37,913 nucleotides of DNA, taken from NCBI GenBank assembly GCA_947627495.1, contig CANQWH010000006.1, positions 1-37,913 of the forward strand, in the 5' to 3' direction. Origin of the DNA: an uncultured Clostridia bacterium (GTDB lineage Bacteria; Bacillota; Clostridia; TANB77; CAG-508). Below, piece after piece: positions 614 to 37,913 of this stretch. Position 1 is the stretch's first letter. Every line of letters starts with the position of its first letter. A program made the translations under genes and the position numbers. Under the pieces are notes generated by a model, which saw nothing but the letters and a program-made list of their open reading frames with translations, had not been told where the DNA came from and ran no database searches.

Positions 614-1513
614 ATGTTTGAAGATATTAAAAAAAATAAAATTAAATCTGGAATAATTGTCAGTGGTTTTATTCTTATTATTACATTAATTATATATTAT
701 ATTTGTATGGCATTAGACCTTGGTGGACCAATTGCTATAATTTTTGCAATGGGATTTTCAATTGCAATGAGCTTTGCTTCTTATTATAATTGTGATAAAA
801 TTATCCTATCTGTTACTAAGGCAAGACCTGCCACATTAGAAGAAGATAGAAAAATAGTTCATATATTAGATGCACTTATGATATCTTCTGGACTTTCTCA
901 TCGACCTACTTTATATGTAGTAGAAGATGCTCAGCCTAATGCTTTTGCAACAGGTCGTAATCCTGAACATTCTATTATTTGTGTAACTACCGGTCTTTTA
1001 GATAAATTAGAATATTATGAATTAGAAGGGGTTATTGCACATGAGATGGGGCATATAAGAAATTATGATATTTTGCTTACTTCTATTGTTACTGTTATGG
1101 TTGGCTTCTTAGTTATGGTTTCTGATTTATTCTCTCGTTCTTTATTCTGGGGAGGTTCAAGAGACAATGATGATGATAATAAAGGAAATGCAATTTTAAT
1201 GATAATCGGTTTAATTCTCTTAATTGTTTCACCTATCTTAGGAGAAATTATGAGATTAGCACTTTCACGAAATAGAGAATACCTTGCAGATGCAACTGCT
1301 GCTGAAATTACTAGAAATCCTCAAGGTTTAATATCTGCTTTAAAGAAATTAGATAGTGATGATAATGAGTTAAAAACAGCTAATAATGCAACTGCGAATT
1401 TATTTATAGTAAGTCCTTTTAAGAGTAAAAAAAACGGAAGAAAAAAAGCAGGACTATTTGATACACATCCAAGCATTGATGATAGAATTGCGGCTCTTGA
1501 AAATATTAAATAA
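614..1513 (+). CDS. htpX: HtpX-like M48 zinc metalloprotease
   Basis: HEMGHIRNYD zinc motif, N-terminal TM helices, PNAFATGRNPEHSIICVTTGLL and C-terminal THPSIDDRIAALE are typical of HtpX. Confidence 0.93.
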   Translation: MFEDIKKNKIKSGIIVSGFILIITLIIYYICMALDLGGPIAIIFAMGFSIAMSFASYYNCDKIILSVTKARPATLEEDRKIVHILDALMISSGLSHRPTLYVVEDAQPNAFATGRNPEHSIICVTTGLLDKLEYYELEGVIAHEMGHIRNYDILLTSIVTVMVGFLVMVSDLFSRSLFWGGSRDNDDDNKGNAILMIIGLILLIVSPILGEIMRLALSRNREYLADATAAEITRNPQGLISALKKLDSDDNELKTANNATANLFIVSPFKSKKNGRKKAGLFDTHPSIDDRIAALENIK

Positions 1514-1526
1514 TTTAAGATAAACT

Positions 1527-1563
1527 GAAAACTCACTTACAAAAATACTGTAAGTGAGTTTTA
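1527..1563. terminator. Bidirectional intrinsic terminator between htpX and RNHCP gene
   Basis: Perfect stem AAACTCACTTAC / GTAAGTGAGTTT flanked by A and T runs, between convergent genes. Confidence 0.8.
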
Positions 1564-1600
1564 TTGTAAAAGGACAAGGTTTCCAGGTACCACCAATGTT

Positions 1601-1942
1601 TTATTCTCCATTATATGAATTATTTACACTTAAACTTATAATTAAATCTATGTTATCATCTTTAGCAGCTTTATTCTTCCTAATTGCTCCACATTTTTTA
1701 CATTTATATATTATTACATATCCTTTCTTTGGGCTTATCTCCACTCCTATTGGTTTTAATAAACCATGACATGTTTCTTGTCTGTCTCCTGGATTTACAT
1801 CTACATGTTTAGAATATAAACATGTATTGCAATGATTTCTACAAGAATATCCTAGTTTTGGTACTTTATGTCCACAATTTTCACAAATAAATTCTTCATC
1901 AATTTCTGTAAATAGACTATCCATTATTCTAACTCCATTCAC
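1601..1942 (-). CDS. RNHCP domain-containing protein
   Basis: CENCGHKVP...RNHCNTCLYSKHVDVNPGDRQETCHGLLKPIG...YKCKKCG matches the RNHCP family signature. Confidence 0.85.
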   Translation of the reverse strand: MNGVRIMDSLFTEIDEEFICENCGHKVPKLGYSCRNHCNTCLYSKHVDVNPGDRQETCHGLLKPIGVEISPKKGYVIIYKCKKCGAIRKNKAAKDDNIDLIISLSVNNSYNGE

Positions 1943-1956
1943 AATATTTTTATAAT

Positions 1957-3597
1957 CTATTCTTTAAATATACTACCACCAATGAATTCTCTTAAGAGTG
2001 ATTGTGATGGTACATCTTCATCTGGTATATCATTAAAATATGAAAGCATTGCATATAATCGTCTAGCCTCTGAATACAATGGTAATTTTTGATCTATTTC
2101 TTTTAATAATGGCATTACATATTTCTTTAAAACACTTAATTCATATACAAGTGATGAATTGAACATCACATCTGCTTCTTCTTGAAACTTAAATATATTA
2201 TTTACTTCGCCCCTATTTACAGATGGCCACATTTCTAATGTATGCTCTGCACCATATCCTCTAAATTTTTTATCCCTTACAATTCTTCTAATTAACCTTG
2301 TATCTGTTGTTGATATTCTATTATAGTAGTCTATATTTAAAACTGTTAATGCACTAATATATATTTTATATTTCTGTTCTTTTGGAATAAGATATGTAAG
2401 TTCATCATTTAAACAATGTATACCTTCCATTATTAAAACTTCATCCTTTGCAAGTTTCATTTTGTTTCCCTTATATTCTTTATGACCTGTATGGAAGTTA
2501 AATATTGGTGCATCTATTTCTTCTCCATTTAAAAGTTTTATTAAATTGCTGTTTAATAATTTTGTGTCTATAGCATTTATATTTTCGAAATCGTAATTTC
2601 CCTGCTCATCTAATGGAGTGTTTTCTCTTTCTACAAAATAGTTATCTACTGATATTGTTACTGGTTTTATTCCATTTAACCTTAGTTGAATTTCTAATCT
2701 TTTAGCAAATGTTGTTTTTCCTGAAGATGATGGTCCTGCAATTGAAACTAATTTTATATTCTTATTTTGAGTAATATTATCTGCAATTGCAGCAATCTTT
2801 TTCTCATGTAAAGCCTCATCTAATAATATATATTCTTTTATTTTGCCTTCTTCTACAATTTTATTAAGTTTATATAAAGTGTTTACATTCAAAACTTTAT
2901 GAACATCTTCATAATCTTCTAGTGTTGCAAATAATTTGGGAGTTTCCTTAAATTCAATTAATCTGTCTGGATTTTCACGATTTGGATATCTAATTAAAAA
3001 ACCATTTTTATATTTTTGAATTTTATAATTCGTAGCAAATCCTGTTGATATAGGTAATACACCATAAAAATAGTTATAATAATCCTCACAATAATATAAT
3101 GTTACAACTTCTTTTTCTTTTAAATCTATTTGCAATCTTCCTTTTAAAGTTTTCTCTCTTTCATAAAATTTCTCTGCTTCTTGTTTATCCATAATTCGTC
3201 TTTCTATGGGTAAATTCTGTTTTATAATTTCTTTTACTCTGTTATCTACATTTTGTATAACTTCATCAGTTATTTCTAAATTATCTACATTACAAAACAT
3301 AGAATTATATAATTGATAATTTACTGTTATTAGTGAACCTGGATATACTTCACTAAATGCCTTACTAATTATATAAACAAGACCTCTCTTATATATTCTT
3401 ATTCCATCTTTATCTTTTAGATTTATCAATTGTAATTTCCCATTTGCTTTTATTTTATAATTTAAACTTTTTACTTCATTATTAAATTTACATGCAATAG
3501 CATTATATTCTTCTCTTTCAATTTCACTCTTTAATAATTCTTTAACTGTTGTTCCCTCTTTTACATCTATTATAATATTATTATAATCAATTTGCAT
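1957..3597 (-). CDS. Nucleoside (uridine) kinase with N-terminal TGS/ThrRS-like region
   Basis: GPSSSGKTTFAKRL P-loop, SVDNYFVERENTPLDEQGNYDFE, and threonyl-tRNA-synthetase-like N-terminal half. Confidence 0.85.
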   Translation of the reverse strand: MQIDYNNIIIDVKEGTTVKELLKSEIEREEYNAIACKFNNEVKSLNYKIKANGKLQLINLKDKDGIRIYKRGLVYIISKAFSEVYPGSLITVNYQLYNSMFCNVDNLEITDEVIQNVDNRVKEIIKQNLPIERRIMDKQEAEKFYEREKTLKGRLQIDLKEKEVVTLYYCEDYYNYFYGVLPISTGFATNYKIQKYKNGFLIRYPNRENPDRLIEFKETPKLFATLEDYEDVHKVLNVNTLYKLNKIVEEGKIKEYILLDEALHEKKIAAIADNITQNKNIKLVSIAGPSSSGKTTFAKRLEIQLRLNGIKPVTISVDNYFVERENTPLDEQGNYDFENINAIDTKLLNSNLIKLLNGEEIDAPIFNFHTGHKEYKGNKMKLAKDEVLIMEGIHCLNDELTYLIPKEQKYKIYISALTVLNIDYYNRISTTDTRLIRRIVRDKKFRGYGAEHTLEMWPSVNRGEVNNIFKFQEEADVMFNSSLVYELSVLKKYVMPLLKEIDQKLPLYSEARRLYAMLSYFNDIPDEDVPSQSLLREFIGGSIFKE

Positions 3598-3647
3598 CTT
3601 TCATCACATCTTTCTTAGTCAAAAATTAATTTGAAAAATAACGTTTA

Positions 3648-4694
3648 TTATAATTCTTTTTCTTTATCTCCATCTTTGCTTACCATCTTTAATATTTCTT
3701 CATAATCACCATTATAGGTTCCATATATTATCCAATCTTCAACTACATTTATGACTTCAATTTCCTCATCATCTTTTTGTATTGTTGTTTTTTCAGTTCC
3801 ATTATATTTTATACTTTTTATTGAATAATCGCTATAATCAGGAGTTGTAGTATAATATATACAGTCTTCTTGCATACTAATGCTATATATATTATTATCT
3901 AATTTGCATATTTTTTCTTGTTTCGTTCCTTTTTTATTCATTTTATACAATGAATATTCATAATTATAGTCTTTATCTCTTTCAGAGACAATATAATATA
4001 TCTTTCCGCCTTTTACTAATAATTTTTCAAATGACTCATTATCTTCTTCTATTTTAGCTATTTTTTCTGTTTCTTCTCCATTTGTCTTCATTTTTGCTAT
4101 ATATTCTGAAGAATCTGTTGCATATATGTAATAAATCCAATTACCATCTACTTGATAATAGCTAATGTTTTTATCGGAAATCTTAGTTCTTTCTGTTCCA
4201 TTAGTTCTTACTCTATATAAATTACTATTTTTTGGATAGTATATCCATTTTTCTGTTACAGTAATATAATAATCATCTTCTATATCTCTTGCTAAAATTT
4301 CTTTATCCTTACCGTTTTTCTTCATTCTTACCAAATTATATTGATCATCATCTTCCTCTACACAATAAATGTAATTATCTATTATATTTAATTGGAAAAA
4401 ATTTCCGTCTGCAACCTTTTCTATTTTTTTACCACTATTTTTAACTCTGCATATTCCAACAGGCTCACTATCATCTATTTCTATATAATATATCCAGTTA
4501 CCATCTTGAACTGCTATACCATATGAATCACTATTGCCTATTGTATTTCCCATTTTATCTCCTTTTAAAGATGAAGCAATTACCAAAATTGCAATTACTA
4601 TAATTAATGCTGCAATTATTTTTTTACATAATGATTTGTTTGAATTAAAAAATTGTTTAATAAAATTAATACATTTTAAAAATTTTTCTTTCAT
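3648..4694 (-). CDS. DUF5050-like membrane-anchored beta-propeller-type protein
   Basis: N-terminal TM followed by repeated DGNWIYYI...RVKxNGxxxEKI units. Confidence 0.7.
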   Translation of the reverse strand: MKEKFLKCINFIKQFFNSNKSLCKKIIAALIIVIAILVIASSLKGDKMGNTIGNSDSYGIAVQDGNWIYYIEIDDSEPVGICRVKNSGKKIEKVADGNFFQLNIIDNYIYCVEEDDDQYNLVRMKKNGKDKEILARDIEDDYYITVTEKWIYYPKNSNLYRVRTNGTERTKISDKNISYYQVDGNWIYYIYATDSSEYIAKMKTNGEETEKIAKIEEDNESFEKLLVKGGKIYYIVSERDKDYNYEYSLYKMNKKGTKQEKICKLDNNIYSISMQEDCIYYTTTPDYSDYSIKSIKYNGTEKTTIQKDDEEIEVINVVEDWIIYGTYNGDYEEILKMVSKDGDKEKEL

Positions 4695-4730
4695 TTATTT
4701 CCCTCCATAAAATATTTCAATATTATTACT

Positions 4731-5345
4731 TTATTTAGCAGTATTATCTAGCATGTTTAACACTAGAACATATAATACAGATATTACACAACCAATAAAT
4801 ATAAATATAACTATATCTTTTATATGATTTATATTATATGGTCTACTACTTGGATTTGCTGTTTCAAAAATTTGTGTACTATCTAAATTATAAAATTCAA
4901 CAATTTTTTCGCAAAAGACTTTTGCTGTTTCATTTGCAATATCAGCCGCATATTTTGGATTTTTATTTTTTACTGTAATATCTATCAAGTCTGAGTCCTT
5001 AACAGCTTGTACTGATATTTTACCTTTTATGCCACTAACATTTATATTAGTATTGTTAAGATTTTTTACTACTTCATCTAATATAAAATCTCTTTTTATT
5101 AATTCTTCACATGTTGCCACTAATCTTGCGTTTGATACTTCATTTGATTGTATAACATTTCCATCTGCAGTACCTGTTATAACACTTTGAATTAATATAA
5201 TTGAAGCAGTTGATTTGTATTCAGGTTTTACTACTAAATACGAATATAATGCTCCTATTACTGTAAAAGCTAAAATTATTAATAATATATGTATTTTTTT
5301 ATCCCAAAATTTTGCTAATAGTTCTCTTAAGTCTAATTCTTCCAT
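4731..5345 (-). CDS. Wzz/YveK-type chain-length determinant protein
   Basis: DLRELLAKFWDKKIHILLIILAFTVIGALYSYLVVKPEYKSTASIIL and C-terminal TM; Wzz domain organisation. Confidence 0.8.
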   Translation of the reverse strand: MEELDLRELLAKFWDKKIHILLIILAFTVIGALYSYLVVKPEYKSTASIILIQSVITGTADGNVIQSNEVSNARLVATCEELIKRDFILDEVVKNLNNTNINVSGIKGKISVQAVKDSDLIDITVKNKNPKYAADIANETAKVFCEKIVEFYNLDSTQIFETANPSSRPYNINHIKDIVIFIFIGCVISVLYVLVLNMLDNTAK

Positions 5346-21238: not shown

Positions 21239-21311
21239 ATTATACAATATTTTACATAATTTTTCAATAGTTTTGTAATATTTCTGTAATGTTTTTGTAA
21301 TATTTTTGTAA
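21239..21311 (-). promoter_or_regulatory. Promoter of Cys-rich protein 1 with 4x 11-bp TTACA direct-repeat array
   Basis: Minus strand: TTACAAAAATA TTACAAAAACA TTACAGAAATA TTACAAAACTA TTGAAA-17-TATAAT. Boxes start at 21311, 21300, 21289, 21278. Confidence 0.7.
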
Positions 21312-21369
21312 TATTTATTGTTACATTGTTACATTATTGTCCATTATTTCATTTAAATTTTTAAACATT

Positions 21370-23735: not shown

Positions 23736-23815
23736 ATAATACACTTTTTTTTTAAAATTTTCAATATTTTTCGCATATGTAATATAAATGTAATGTCCTT
23801 GTAATATATTTGTAA
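23736..23815 (-). promoter_or_regulatory. Promoter of Cys-rich protein 2 with 4x 11-bp TTACA array
   Basis: Minus strand boxes start at 23815, 23804, 23793, 23782; TTGAAA (23764-23759)-17-TATTAT (23741-23736). Confidence 0.7.
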
Positions 23816-23831
23816 TAATAAAAGTTAAACT

Positions 23832-26489: not shown

Positions 26490-26603
26490 TATTTTCCATA
26501 AATATTGCTTATGTTCTTTATTTTTTTCATTTTATGTTTCCGTAAGTTAATACTTTATTATTATATATATTATTTTTATATTTGTAATATTCTTGTAATA
26601 ATT

Positions 26604-28652
26604 TTATATTTCTATTTTTTTACTAAATTTTTCTTCTATTTGTTTTTTCAGTAATACATTTTTTTCATCTTTTAAATTTTTATCTTCATTTATTATTTTT
26701 AAAGCTAAACTCTGAATATCTTTTAGAATTTCTACATCTTGAAATAAATTTGCAATTTTAAATTCTGGTATGCCATGTTGCCTTGTTCCAAAAAATTCAC
26801 CTGAACCGCGTAATTCTAAATCCTTTTGAGATATTTTAAAACCATCATTTGTTTCTACCATTATTTTCATTCTTTCTCTTGTTTGTTCACTATTTCCCTT
26901 ATATTTTAATATACAATATGATTTATATTTCCCTCTTCCTACTCTTCCTCTTAATTGATGCAATGTTGCAAGCCCAAAGCGTTCCGCATTTTCTATTACC
27001 ATTATTGTACTATTTGGAACATCCACACCAACTTCTATTACTGTTGTAGATATTAATATATCTGTGTTTCCGTTTTTAAATTCTTCCATTATTCTGTCTT
27101 TTTCTTTTTTGTTTAGTTTTCCATGTATATATTCTACTTTATATTCTTTAAATGTTTCATTCTTGTATTTTTCTGCAATTTCTATTACAGATCTTGCATT
27201 TATTTCCTCATTTTCTTCTACTAGTGGGCACACTATGTATGCTTGTCTTCCTTCATTTATTTGAGCTTTTATGAAATTATTCACTCGCTCTTCTTTTGAT
27301 GGTGTTACCGCAAATGTATCTATTTTTTGCCTATTAGGAGGTAGTTCATCTATTATTGATATATCCAAATCTCCATATAAAATTAATGCTAGGGTTCTAG
27401 GTATAGGTGTTGCAGACATAACTAATACATCTGGATTTTCTCCTTTACTATTTATAATTCCTCTTTGTCTTACTCCAAATCTATGCTGTTCATCTGTAAC
27501 TACTAATCCCAATTTATTAAATTCTACATTTTCTTGCAATAATGCATGTGTCCCTATTATTACATCTATGTTTCCTATTTTTAAATTTTCTAAAATCTCT
27601 TCTTTTTTCTTTTTTGGTGTTCCACTAACTAGAAGTTCACATCTTATATTAAATTTTTCTAATATATTTTTAAAATTTTCATAGTGTTGCTTTGCAAGTA
27701 TTGCAGTTGGCACCATAACTGCTACTTGATAACTACTTTTTACGGCTTTATATGTTGCTACCATTGCTACTGCTGTTTTTCCGCTTCCTACATCTCCTTG
27801 TAGAAGTCTATTCATACTTTTTTTACTTTCCATGTCTCTATCAATTTCTTCTAATACTTTATTCTGAGCATTTGTTAACTTAAACGGCAATTCATTTATT
27901 ATTTCATACATTCTTGCATCTTTACTAAATTCAATACCTTTTGTTTCTCTACTATAATTACTTTTCAAATTTAATAATGCAAGTTGCATAATAAGCAATT
28001 CTTCAAATACTAGTCTTTTCCTTGCTTCATTGTATTTTTTAAAACTTTCTGGAAAATGAATCTGCTCAGTAGCTGTATTTATATCCATTATTTTATATTC
28101 ATCTATTAGGTATTTAGGCAAAGTTTCTGGTATATTGCCTTTTACTTCGTTTAAAGCATTCTCTATTATTTTTCTTAATGTGTTTTGTGATAAATTATAT
28201 GTGCTAGAATATATTGGTATAATTTTACCTGTATTTTTGTTTGAGTTTTCATTATCAAATATTGGGTTTGACATATCAATTTGATTAATTCTTCGTTTCA
28301 CTTTTCCAAAAAATTGATATGTTTCTCCTATTTTAAATCTATTTTTTAAGTAATATGCATTAAACCATGTTATAGTGCATGTTGCAGTATCATCTCTTAC
28401 TATTAATTTATATATTGACATATTTTTTCTTATCTTTATCTCTGTCATTTTTGAAACACATTTAGCTTTTATTAAAACTTCTTCTCCATCTACTAAGTCT
28501 TTTATGTATTTTGGTTTTCCTCTATCTTCATAGGTCCTAGGATAGTATGTTATAACATCATTTAATGTATATATGCCTAATTTATTTAGTTGTTTTATTC
28601 TATTTGGTCCTACTCCTTTTATGTATTTTGCATCTTTTAATAAATCTACCAT
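26604..28652 (-). CDS. recG: ATP-dependent DNA helicase RecG
   Basis: LLQGDVGSGKTAVAMVATYKAV, TDEQHRFGVRQR, MSATPIPRTLAL, LRGRVGRG motifs. Confidence 0.95.
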   Translation of the reverse strand: MVDLLKDAKYIKGVGPNRIKQLNKLGIYTLNDVITYYPRTYEDRGKPKYIKDLVDGEEVLIKAKCVSKMTEIKIRKNMSIYKLIVRDDTATCTITWFNAYYLKNRFKIGETYQFFGKVKRRINQIDMSNPIFDNENSNKNTGKIIPIYSSTYNLSQNTLRKIIENALNEVKGNIPETLPKYLIDEYKIMDINTATEQIHFPESFKKYNEARKRLVFEELLIMQLALLNLKSNYSRETKGIEFSKDARMYEIINELPFKLTNAQNKVLEEIDRDMESKKSMNRLLQGDVGSGKTAVAMVATYKAVKSSYQVAVMVPTAILAKQHYENFKNILEKFNIRCELLVSGTPKKKKEEILENLKIGNIDVIIGTHALLQENVEFNKLGLVVTDEQHRFGVRQRGIINSKGENPDVLVMSATPIPRTLALILYGDLDISIIDELPPNRQKIDTFAVTPSKEERVNNFIKAQINEGRQAYIVCPLVEENEEINARSVIEIAEKYKNETFKEYKVEYIHGKLNKKEKDRIMEEFKNGNTDILISTTVIEVGVDVPNSTIMVIENAERFGLATLHQLRGRVGRGKYKSYCILKYKGNSEQTRERMKIMVETNDGFKISQKDLELRGSGEFFGTRQHGIPEFKIANLFQDVEILKDIQSLALKIINEDKNLKDEKNVLLKKQIEEKFSKKIEI

Positions 28653-36033: not shown

Positions 36034-37026
36034 TTATTGAGCTTGAACTGCAGTAATAGCTACAACGCCAACTATATCTTCTGCTTTGCATCCTCTTGAT
36101 AAATCATTTACTGGTTTTGCCATTCCTTGGCACATTGGACCATAAGCTTCTGCCTTTGCTAATCTCTCTACTAATTTATATCCTATATTTCCAGCATTTA
36201 AATCTGGGAATATTATTGTATTTGCTCTTCCTGCTACATTGCTTCCTGGAGCCTTACTATTTCCTACGCTTGGAACTAAGGCTGCATCTAACTGCATTTC
36301 TCCATCTAATACTAATTCTGGAGCTTTTTCTTTTGCAAGCCTTGTAGCTTCTTGTACTTTTTCAACTTCATCAGCTTTTGCACTTCCATATGTTGAATAA
36401 GAAAGCATTGCAATTCTTGGTTCTTTTCCTATTATATTTTTAAAGCTTTCTGCTGTTGAAATTGCAATTTCTGATAATTCTTCACTATTTGGATTTTGAT
36501 TTAGTGCACAATCTGAAAACATAAATACGCCATTTTCCCCATATTCACAATTCGGAACTACCATAACATTAAATGTTGATACTAGTTTTGTTCCTGGTTT
36601 TGTTTTTAAAATTTGAAGTGCTGGTCTTAAAGTATCTGCTGTTGAATGTGCTGCTCCTGATACTAAGCCATCTGCTTCTTCCTTTTTTACCATCATCATT
36701 CCAAAAAATACTGGGTCTAAAATTAATTGTTTTGCTTGCTCCATTGTAATTCCTTTTGCTTTTCTTAATTCATAAAAATATTCTACATATTCTTCATATT
36801 TTTCAGAAGTTGCTGGATTAACAATATTTGCTTTTGATATATCTAAATCATTTTGCTCAGCTATTTTCTTAACTTCTTCTTCATTTCCAATTAATACTAT
36901 TTTTGCAAAACCTTCTTTGCAAATTGTATCTACTGCTTTTAGTGTTCTTATATCTGTTGCTTCTGGTAATACTATAGTTTTTATCTGTTTTCTTGCTCTT
37001 TCTTTGATTTCTTCAATAAAACTCAT
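36034..37026 (-). CDS. pta: Phosphate acetyltransferase
   Basis: KTIVLPEATDIRTLKA, MVKKEEADGLVSGAAHSTADTLRPALQI, SKAPGSNVAGRANTIIFPDLNAGNIGYKL. Confidence 0.96.
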   Translation of the reverse strand: MSFIEEIKERARKQIKTIVLPEATDIRTLKAVDTICKEGFAKIVLIGNEEEVKKIAEQNDLDISKANIVNPATSEKYEEYVEYFYELRKAKGITMEQAKQLILDPVFFGMMMVKKEEADGLVSGAAHSTADTLRPALQILKTKPGTKLVSTFNVMVVPNCEYGENGVFMFSDCALNQNPNSEELSEIAISTAESFKNIIGKEPRIAMLSYSTYGSAKADEVEKVQEATRLAKEKAPELVLDGEMQLDAALVPSVGNSKAPGSNVAGRANTIIFPDLNAGNIGYKLVERLAKAEAYGPMCQGMAKPVNDLSRGCKAEDIVGVVAITAVQAQ

Positions 37027-37142
37027 AAATTTCCTCCATTTCTAACTTTTATATTATATAACAAAATTTAGTAAATTACAATACTTTTGCCATATATTAA
37101 TAAAGTAGGCGTATTAGCTCATTACTATAAAAATTATTGGCT

Positions 37143-37180
37143 AAAAAAAGGTACTATAATCTGTACAATTATAGTATCTC
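37143..37180 (-). terminator. Intrinsic terminator closing the small unit at 37.2-37.4 kb
   Basis: Minus strand GATACTATAATTGTACAGATTATAGTACCTTTTTTT. Confidence 0.7.
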
Positions 37181-37206
37181 TTAACTGTATACAAATTTAT
37201 TTAACT

Positions 37207-37329
37207 TTATACTCCAAGAACTTTTACTGGAAACTTTTTTAAATTTATATTCAATGATTTTTTACCAATGTTTTGTTTTCCTCTATTTTTTATCTTTTGC
37301 CTGTCTACATTATACACGTATTTTTTCAT
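37207..37329 (-). CDS. Candidate 40-aa cationic peptide (or sRNA)
   Basis: Translation MKKYVYNVDRQKIKNRGKQNIGKKSLNINLKKFPVKVLGV; between a promoter (37341-37368) and terminator (37143-37180). No clear SD; near-leaderless. Confidence 0.35.
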   Translation of the reverse strand: MKKYVYNVDRQKIKNRGKQNIGKKSLNINLKKFPVKVLGV

Positions 37330-37340
37330 TTCTTTACTTT

Positions 37341-37420
37341 ATTCTAACATTTTTTATTTTGCTGTAAATTAGTTTTGGTATTTGTAACATAAATTTAATA
37401 TTTTGGTAATAATGTTGTAA
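37341..37420 (-). promoter_or_regulatory. Promoter with 4x 11-bp TTACA-like array, same register as the Cys-rich protein 2 promoter
   Basis: Boxes start at 37420 (TTACA), 37409 (TTACC), 37398 (TTAAA), 37387 (TTACA); TTTACA-16-TAGAAT with TGn extended -10. Confidence 0.65.
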
Positions 37421-37437
37421 CATAAAAAGTTAAAATT

Positions 37438-37630
37438 GTTACTATTCACAGCCTATTATATGTACAAAGTAGCCAAACGCAGGAGTTTCATATTTTTTTC
37501 GAAAGAAAATAATCAAACAGCCTGCTGCTCACGGATTACCCGCGTAGCCATTTTGATTTTTTCTTAAGAAAAAAATATAAAACTCCGATGAGATTTGGCG
37601 GACTTTATAATACAATCTGTAAATAGTAAC
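37438..37630 (+). repeat. TIR-bearing nested-hairpin repeat, copy C
   Basis: GTTACTATTCACAG ... CTGTAAATAGTAAC; conserved CAAAGTAGCCAAACGCAGGAG and GAGATTTGGCGGACTTTATA arms; GC-rich apical sequence unlike copy A. Confidence 0.8.
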
Positions 37631-37682
37631 TATTTTATGTTGCAATTCACAATTTAATTAATATTAATATTTCTTTTATATT

Positions 37683-37913
37683 CTACTTAGCTAATTTCTC
37701 TATCTCTTCTATACTTAGTCCTGTTATCTCTGCTATATCTTCTATGTTTATATTTTTATTTAGCATATTTTTTGCAATTTCTATTTTTTCTTCATTTTTC
37801 CCCATGTCTTTTCCCTGTTCAATTCCATTTTTATACCCATCTTTTCTTGCATATTGTAATGCTGCCTTCTCATCTCTTATTGCTTTTTCTCTTAGCTCTG
37901 CTATTCTTCTTAT
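37683..37913 (-). CDS. C-terminal part of Rpn/PD-(D/E)XK-transposase-family protein (truncated by window edge)
   Basis: Open frame from the window edge: IRRIAELREKAIRDEKAALQYARKDGYKNGIEQGKDMGKNEEKIEIAKNMLNKNINIEDIAEITGLSIEEIEKLAK*, the typical C-terminal tail of this family. Missed by the ORF track (no start). Confidence 0.75.
   Translation of the reverse strand: MRRIAELREKAIRDEKAALQYARKDGYKNGIEQGKDMGKNEEKIEIAKNMLNKNINIEDIAEITGLSIEEIEKLAK

Follow-up and report, generated by a model that had tools for sequence, protein, structure and literature searches.

The minus-strand unit upstream of pta was interpreted as a solo copy of a dispersed module, consisting of a palindrome, a box array and a promoter, which yields no functional product and is either a relic or a landing copy; a probability of about 0.6 was assigned to this reading. 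The unit occupies positions 37143-37421 of the window, i.e., the whole stretch of 37,913 nucleotides that was analysed, and the analysis was based on the sequence of a single assembly of the species. The operator-promoter of the unit is a module that was copied approximately 13 times in the genome, and this dispersal changes how the unit is interpreted.

Architecture and Genomic Context of the Unit

The coordinates of the features are listed in Table 1. An earlier note had described a self-contained minus-strand unit of boxes, promoter, 40-codon frame and terminator; all four elements were located, and the 40 residues of the frame were identical to those it had quoted. The short distance of 11 nt between the -10 element and the ATG, with no Shine-Dalgarno sequence, was likewise confirmed. 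The promoter match taken alone was at chance level (6 found and 6.4 expected), and the promoter was considered credible beyond chance because its -35 and -10 elements are common to the sibling copies. The terminator hairpin is AT-rich, had a folding energy of -11.5 kcal/mol and begins 30 nt past the stop codon of the frame; the terminator scan, whose rule required at least three G-C pairs, overlooked this AT-rich stem.

Table 1. Positions of the features in and around the unit (window coordinates).
Feature	Position	Strand	Remarks
Four-box direct-repeat array	37383..37421	(-)	Exact 11-bp period; GTTACA 37421-37416, ATTACC 37410-37405, ATTAAA 37399-37394, GTTACA 37388-37383; putative response-regulator operator
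Sigma-70-type promoter TTTACA-16-TAGAAT	37341..37368	(-)	-35 TTTACA 37368-37363; -10 TAGAAT 37346-37341; extended -10 (TG) TGTTAGAAT 37349-37341; kept in sibling copies
40-codon ATG frame, including stop	37207..37329	(-)	ATG at 37329; stop TAA 37209-37207; judged no conserved gene
SD-like AGAGGA and in-frame ATT	37267..37284	(-)	AGAGGA 37284-37279; ATT 37269-37267; possible counterpart of a start site
Intrinsic terminator	37143..37176	(-)	Stem 37176-37152; T7 37149-37143
pta	36034..37026	(-)	Pfam PTA_PTB, 1.3e-133
Promoter of pta, TTGTAA-17-TATAAT	37053..37081	(-)	Downstream of the terminator of the unit; kept in congeners
Near-perfect palindrome, ~230 nt	37415..37645	(.)	Inverted repeats; adjoins the array; dispersed repeat

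According to the proposed mechanism, an active regulator would switch the surface genes, the division genes and the promoter of the unit at the same time, and RNA polymerase would yield a transcript of approximately 185-190 nt, ending at the AT-rich terminator ahead of the promoter of pta. A ribosome that reached the stop codon at 37209 would halt approximately 30 nt ahead of the hairpin and would therefore leave termination in force. The 40-codon frame would then be open by chance, within an A-rich leader.

A role of the unit as leader or attenuator of pta was rejected, as the promoter of pta is conserved and located past the terminator of the unit. In the congeners G002, G003 and G005, the unit is absent and pta is preceded by the 3' end of a large surface-protein gene with its own terminator, indicating that the unit is a lineage-specific arrival or remnant. 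On the other side of the unit, positions 37678-37913 (minus strand) carry a gene fragment, truncated where the contig ends, whose sequence is similar to the C-terminal part of Rpn-family nucleases/transposases; it scored 49.4 bits against TIGR01784 (cut-off 52.1).

Dispersal of the Operator-Promoter Module

The segment 37321-37425 recurs approximately 12 more times in the genome with 76-100% identity. In the alignment, the homology among the copies stops approximately 20 nt beyond the -10 element, and the downstream sequence differs. Eight copies (contigs C62, C9, C97, C63 twice, C21, C5 and C96) lead into a short leader ORF with a Shine-Dalgarno sequence, in which M...(S/T)LxAV is followed by (HT)n or (ER)n encoded by an (AC)n or (AG)n tract. 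In six of these eight tract copies, the following gene codes for a pilin-like protein (GITLIALIITIIV); in the other two, on C62 and C9, the contig ended or no following ORF was obtained. Among the remaining copies, the one on C15 stands ahead of a secreted protein, one runs off its contig, and those on C2, on C8 and in the window are devoid of a tract ORF, which the window copy either lost or did not have to begin with. The solo copy on C8 (L051, G000:C8, near 4996) is joined to part of a gene that contains an internal stop and resembles yqeY by eye, and the solo copy on C2 is followed by a gene that by eye is Rpn-like.

Most module copies adjoin a copy of the palindrome, of which dozens of partial or full copies occur in the genome; the palindrome of the window has a fold z of -10. 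Its ends are GTTACWATTYACAGC, and it is scattered in this genus, with another middle in some copies; it may be a mobile element or a terminator. At a loose threshold, Rfam yielded nothing but a miRNA hit in the palindrome, which was ascribed to chance.

An assembly artefact was considered; it could touch the palindrome side only, since 37143-37380 is unique. Upstream of 37380, the sequence shares 93-99% identity with other contigs, and assembly could therefore have affected the link to the palindrome. The link between promoter and body is safe because the sequence there is unique.

Comparison of the Unit with the Tract Cassettes

The main rival to the product-less copy is a collapsed leader-attenuator cassette, in which a former tract, start codon and pilin gene disappeared in situ, so that a remnant of the leader and a permanently active terminator were left. 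The promoter and the order of the elements (promoter, short ORF, terminator) are as in the siblings. Moreover, the SD-like AGAGGA ahead of the in-frame ATT has a location that, judged from the sequence, may be comparable to that of GGAGG..ATG in the siblings, and the frame end K-V-L-G-V-stop recalls K-T-L-G-A-V(HT)n. However, a remnant of the tract motif was sought and rejected (position matrix, p = 0.40; gapped profile, no match), and the body is unlike the sibling bodies or the 3' ends of the pilin genes. A collapsed cassette was regarded as possible at a low probability. It differs from the product-less relic in history and not in present function.

RNA and Coding Potential of the Body

The earlier note had offered a regulatory RNA of ~190 nt as an equal alternative to a peptide, and no positive support for it was obtained. 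A functional small RNA of approximately 185-190 nt, co-regulated with the surface genes, would account for a unit with its own promoter, operator and terminator and with no conserved protein. The fold z of the unit was -1.1 with the terminator, whereas it was -0.19 without it, no better than shuffles, and no stable fold extended beyond the terminator. Furthermore, no Rfam family matched the unit, and a DNA-level search of 39 relatives for the body returned nothing but one 40-nt A-rich match. This match lies in G005 and covers the first part of a 151-aa gene that neighbours a reverse transcriptase; the promoter is present on the same contig, and the match is in frame, with 90% identity and an E value of 6e-8. 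The match was taken as probable chance because it is A-rich, because an unrelated second A-rich match reached 7.5e-7 and because the 151-aa gene was present in 1 of the 26 genomes searched. The small RNA was therefore considered improbable.

The proposal of a gene for a basic 40-residue peptide was not supported. The search of related genomes for relatives of the peptide, which the earlier note had suggested, returned only the peptide itself in 59 genomes; no homologue was found among plasmid proteins, no match among protein families and nothing in phage DNA. The codon score of the frame was -0.225 bits/codon, which is not clearly better than those of the other two frames of the strand (-0.34 and -0.27), and this value lies at about the 5th percentile of real frames (-0.20) and the 95th percentile of wrong frames (-0.20). 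At the place of the ATG, the sibling copies have ATGAAAAAAATGTAG or TTAAGAAAA (TTAAG), with no usable start. The predicted transcription start near 37334 would leave approximately 5 nt before the ATG at 37329, and no Shine-Dalgarno sequence precedes it. Neither conservation nor a coding signal of a small-protein gene was thus observed, and the frame is unlikely to be a gene. The 40 open codons directly behind the promoter are somewhat rare by chance; among composition-matched sequences, 0.4% had an ATG frame of at least 40 codons beginning near the 5' end and 1% had one at any point of the body, both before counting how many spacers could be chosen. This rarity (0.4-1%), together with the clean terminator, makes selection on a product possible. 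Nevertheless, with no homologue, Shine-Dalgarno sequence or codon signal, and with an ATG absent from the sibling promoters, a genuine small basic protein made from an mRNA with almost no leader was deemed highly improbable. The unit is a caution against naming short frames behind copied promoters as new genes. Just as improbable is the reading in which a derivative of the cassettes was retained without its tract and its short regulated transcript or its array acts in trans, e.g., through titration of the response regulator common to them or, in the case of a small RNA, through tuning of the pilin cassettes.

The Box Array as a Putative Operator

The three-box array had 56 matches in the 1.35-Mb genome (at most 2 mismatches), versus 4 for the mirrored control pattern, and the array was present in 24 of the 26 genomes of the order that were searched. 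Arrays in the genome precede ftsA (TIGR01174, above cut-off), sepF (PF04472) and secreted-protein genes, and several of the proteins encoded behind arrays, including those of the window genes near 21300 and 23800, have an N-terminal hydrophobic segment. The suggestion that the unit shares its operator with surface-protein genes was borne out by the window arrays near 21300, 23800 and 26590 and by those elsewhere in the genome. These window arrays, which have the 11-bp spacing too, lie at 21263-21312, 23778-23816 and 26583-26610 (minus strand), ahead of large surface-protein genes.

The consensus of the WalR/VicR (YycF) operator is TGTWAH-N5-TGTWAH (PMC4168254; PMC9210968), and RTTACA with N5 spacing is its reverse complement. 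Both have hexamer direct repeats with 5-bp spacers and an 11-bp period; two of the four boxes of the unit fit the WalR-type half-site exactly, and the other two fit it with one change. The arrays stand ahead of envelope and division genes (ftsA, sepF, surface-protein genes and genes of proteins with an N-terminal hydrophobic segment), as in WalR-type control, and control of ftsAZ by yycFG in Bacillus subtilis is named in the title of Fukuchi (2000), as cited in PMC9210968. Unlike the WalR/VicR operator, the arrays here have three to four boxes. The genome encodes only two OmpR-family regulators; among solved structures, one is closest to DrrD and mycobacterial PhoP, and the other to KdpE. In contrast to the WalR system, these two are at most candidate WalR orthologues. 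Assigning the array to one response regulator was rejected, since arrays also occur in relatives that have no close relative of the better candidate. The array was treated as a putative operator of an OmpR-family response regulator.

Tract Cassettes in Gut Clostridia

The value of the unit is as a pointer to the sibling cassettes, which matter more. The tract motif TTGnnGCTGTA(SA)n was found by pattern scan in 27 of 59 related genomes and was strongly strand-polarised; among the matches listed, it occurred in more than 100 stretches of uncultured Clostridia genomes. The matches listed contained 136 distinct tract sites, 127 of them with a start, and the tract was in one frame from a Shine-Dalgarno ATG at 115 of these 127. 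A pilin-like N terminus lay at most 1.5 kb away at 50 of 93 of the listed sites (background, 5%), and a hairpin with 14 or more pairs and a T tract followed within 250 nt at 65 of the 101 listed sites with enough sequence, where 0.6 were expected. At 47 of these 65 listed sites, a single frame runs into the hairpin and has its stop there, and the two others stop earlier; the control value was 21% when the stretch before the hairpin was resampled. A simpler frame rule that ignored the position of the hairpin gave a weaker result among the matches listed (57% vs 28%). The same tail was also found, in the matches listed, with tract lengths of 8, 9, 10 and 11, in frames 0, 2, 1 and 0, respectively. 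As the tract sites come from related genomes and are not independent, these rates somewhat overstate the evidence. The cassette loci among the matches listed were L042, L043, L045, L048, L281 and approximately 130 more.

These patterns suggest that, across gut Clostridia, the reading frame after the tract determines if a ribosome enters the terminator, and the dinucleotide-tract leaders are candidate phase-variable attenuators that appear widespread in these bacteria. In Streptococcus gallolyticus, the pil1 locus is a phase-variable attenuator in which a leader ORF with a GCAGA repeat is followed by a terminator hairpin and a pilus gene (PMC3894217). The sibling cassettes alone resemble it, with a slippery-repeat leader ORF followed by a hairpin and a pilus-type gene, and with one frame that reaches the hairpin. 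In contrast to pil1, they have an AC or AG dinucleotide as repeat instead of GCAGA and a pilin-like gene as target, in one case accompanied by a diversity-generating retroelement, and they are numerous in uncultured Clostridia. The window unit differs from pil1 in having neither tract nor pilin. A hairpin does follow its short ORF (stem 37176-37152 and T7), whereas no slippery repeat was recovered in that ORF (matrix p = 0.40; no profile match) and no structural gene is read past the terminator, pta having its own conserved promoter. CwpV of Clostridioides difficile is reported to be a phase-variable cell-wall protein whose leader has an intrinsic terminator (PMC2784873); it switches by DNA inversion, unlike the repeat slippage proposed for the sibling cassettes. 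If the interpretation of the cassettes is right, a mechanism demonstrated in a single streptococcus would serve as a major system of surface variation in gut bacteria that are abundant but unstudied, coupled in one case to a diversity-generating retroelement.

In that case, G005, the cassette precedes the target of the retroelement. Its locus (L281, G005:C77, reverse-complement 1111-4839) comprises a tract leader, a pilin-like gene, a template repeat and a reverse transcriptase. Between the 3' end of the pilin-like gene and the downstream template, 21 differences were counted, 20 of which were at template adenines.
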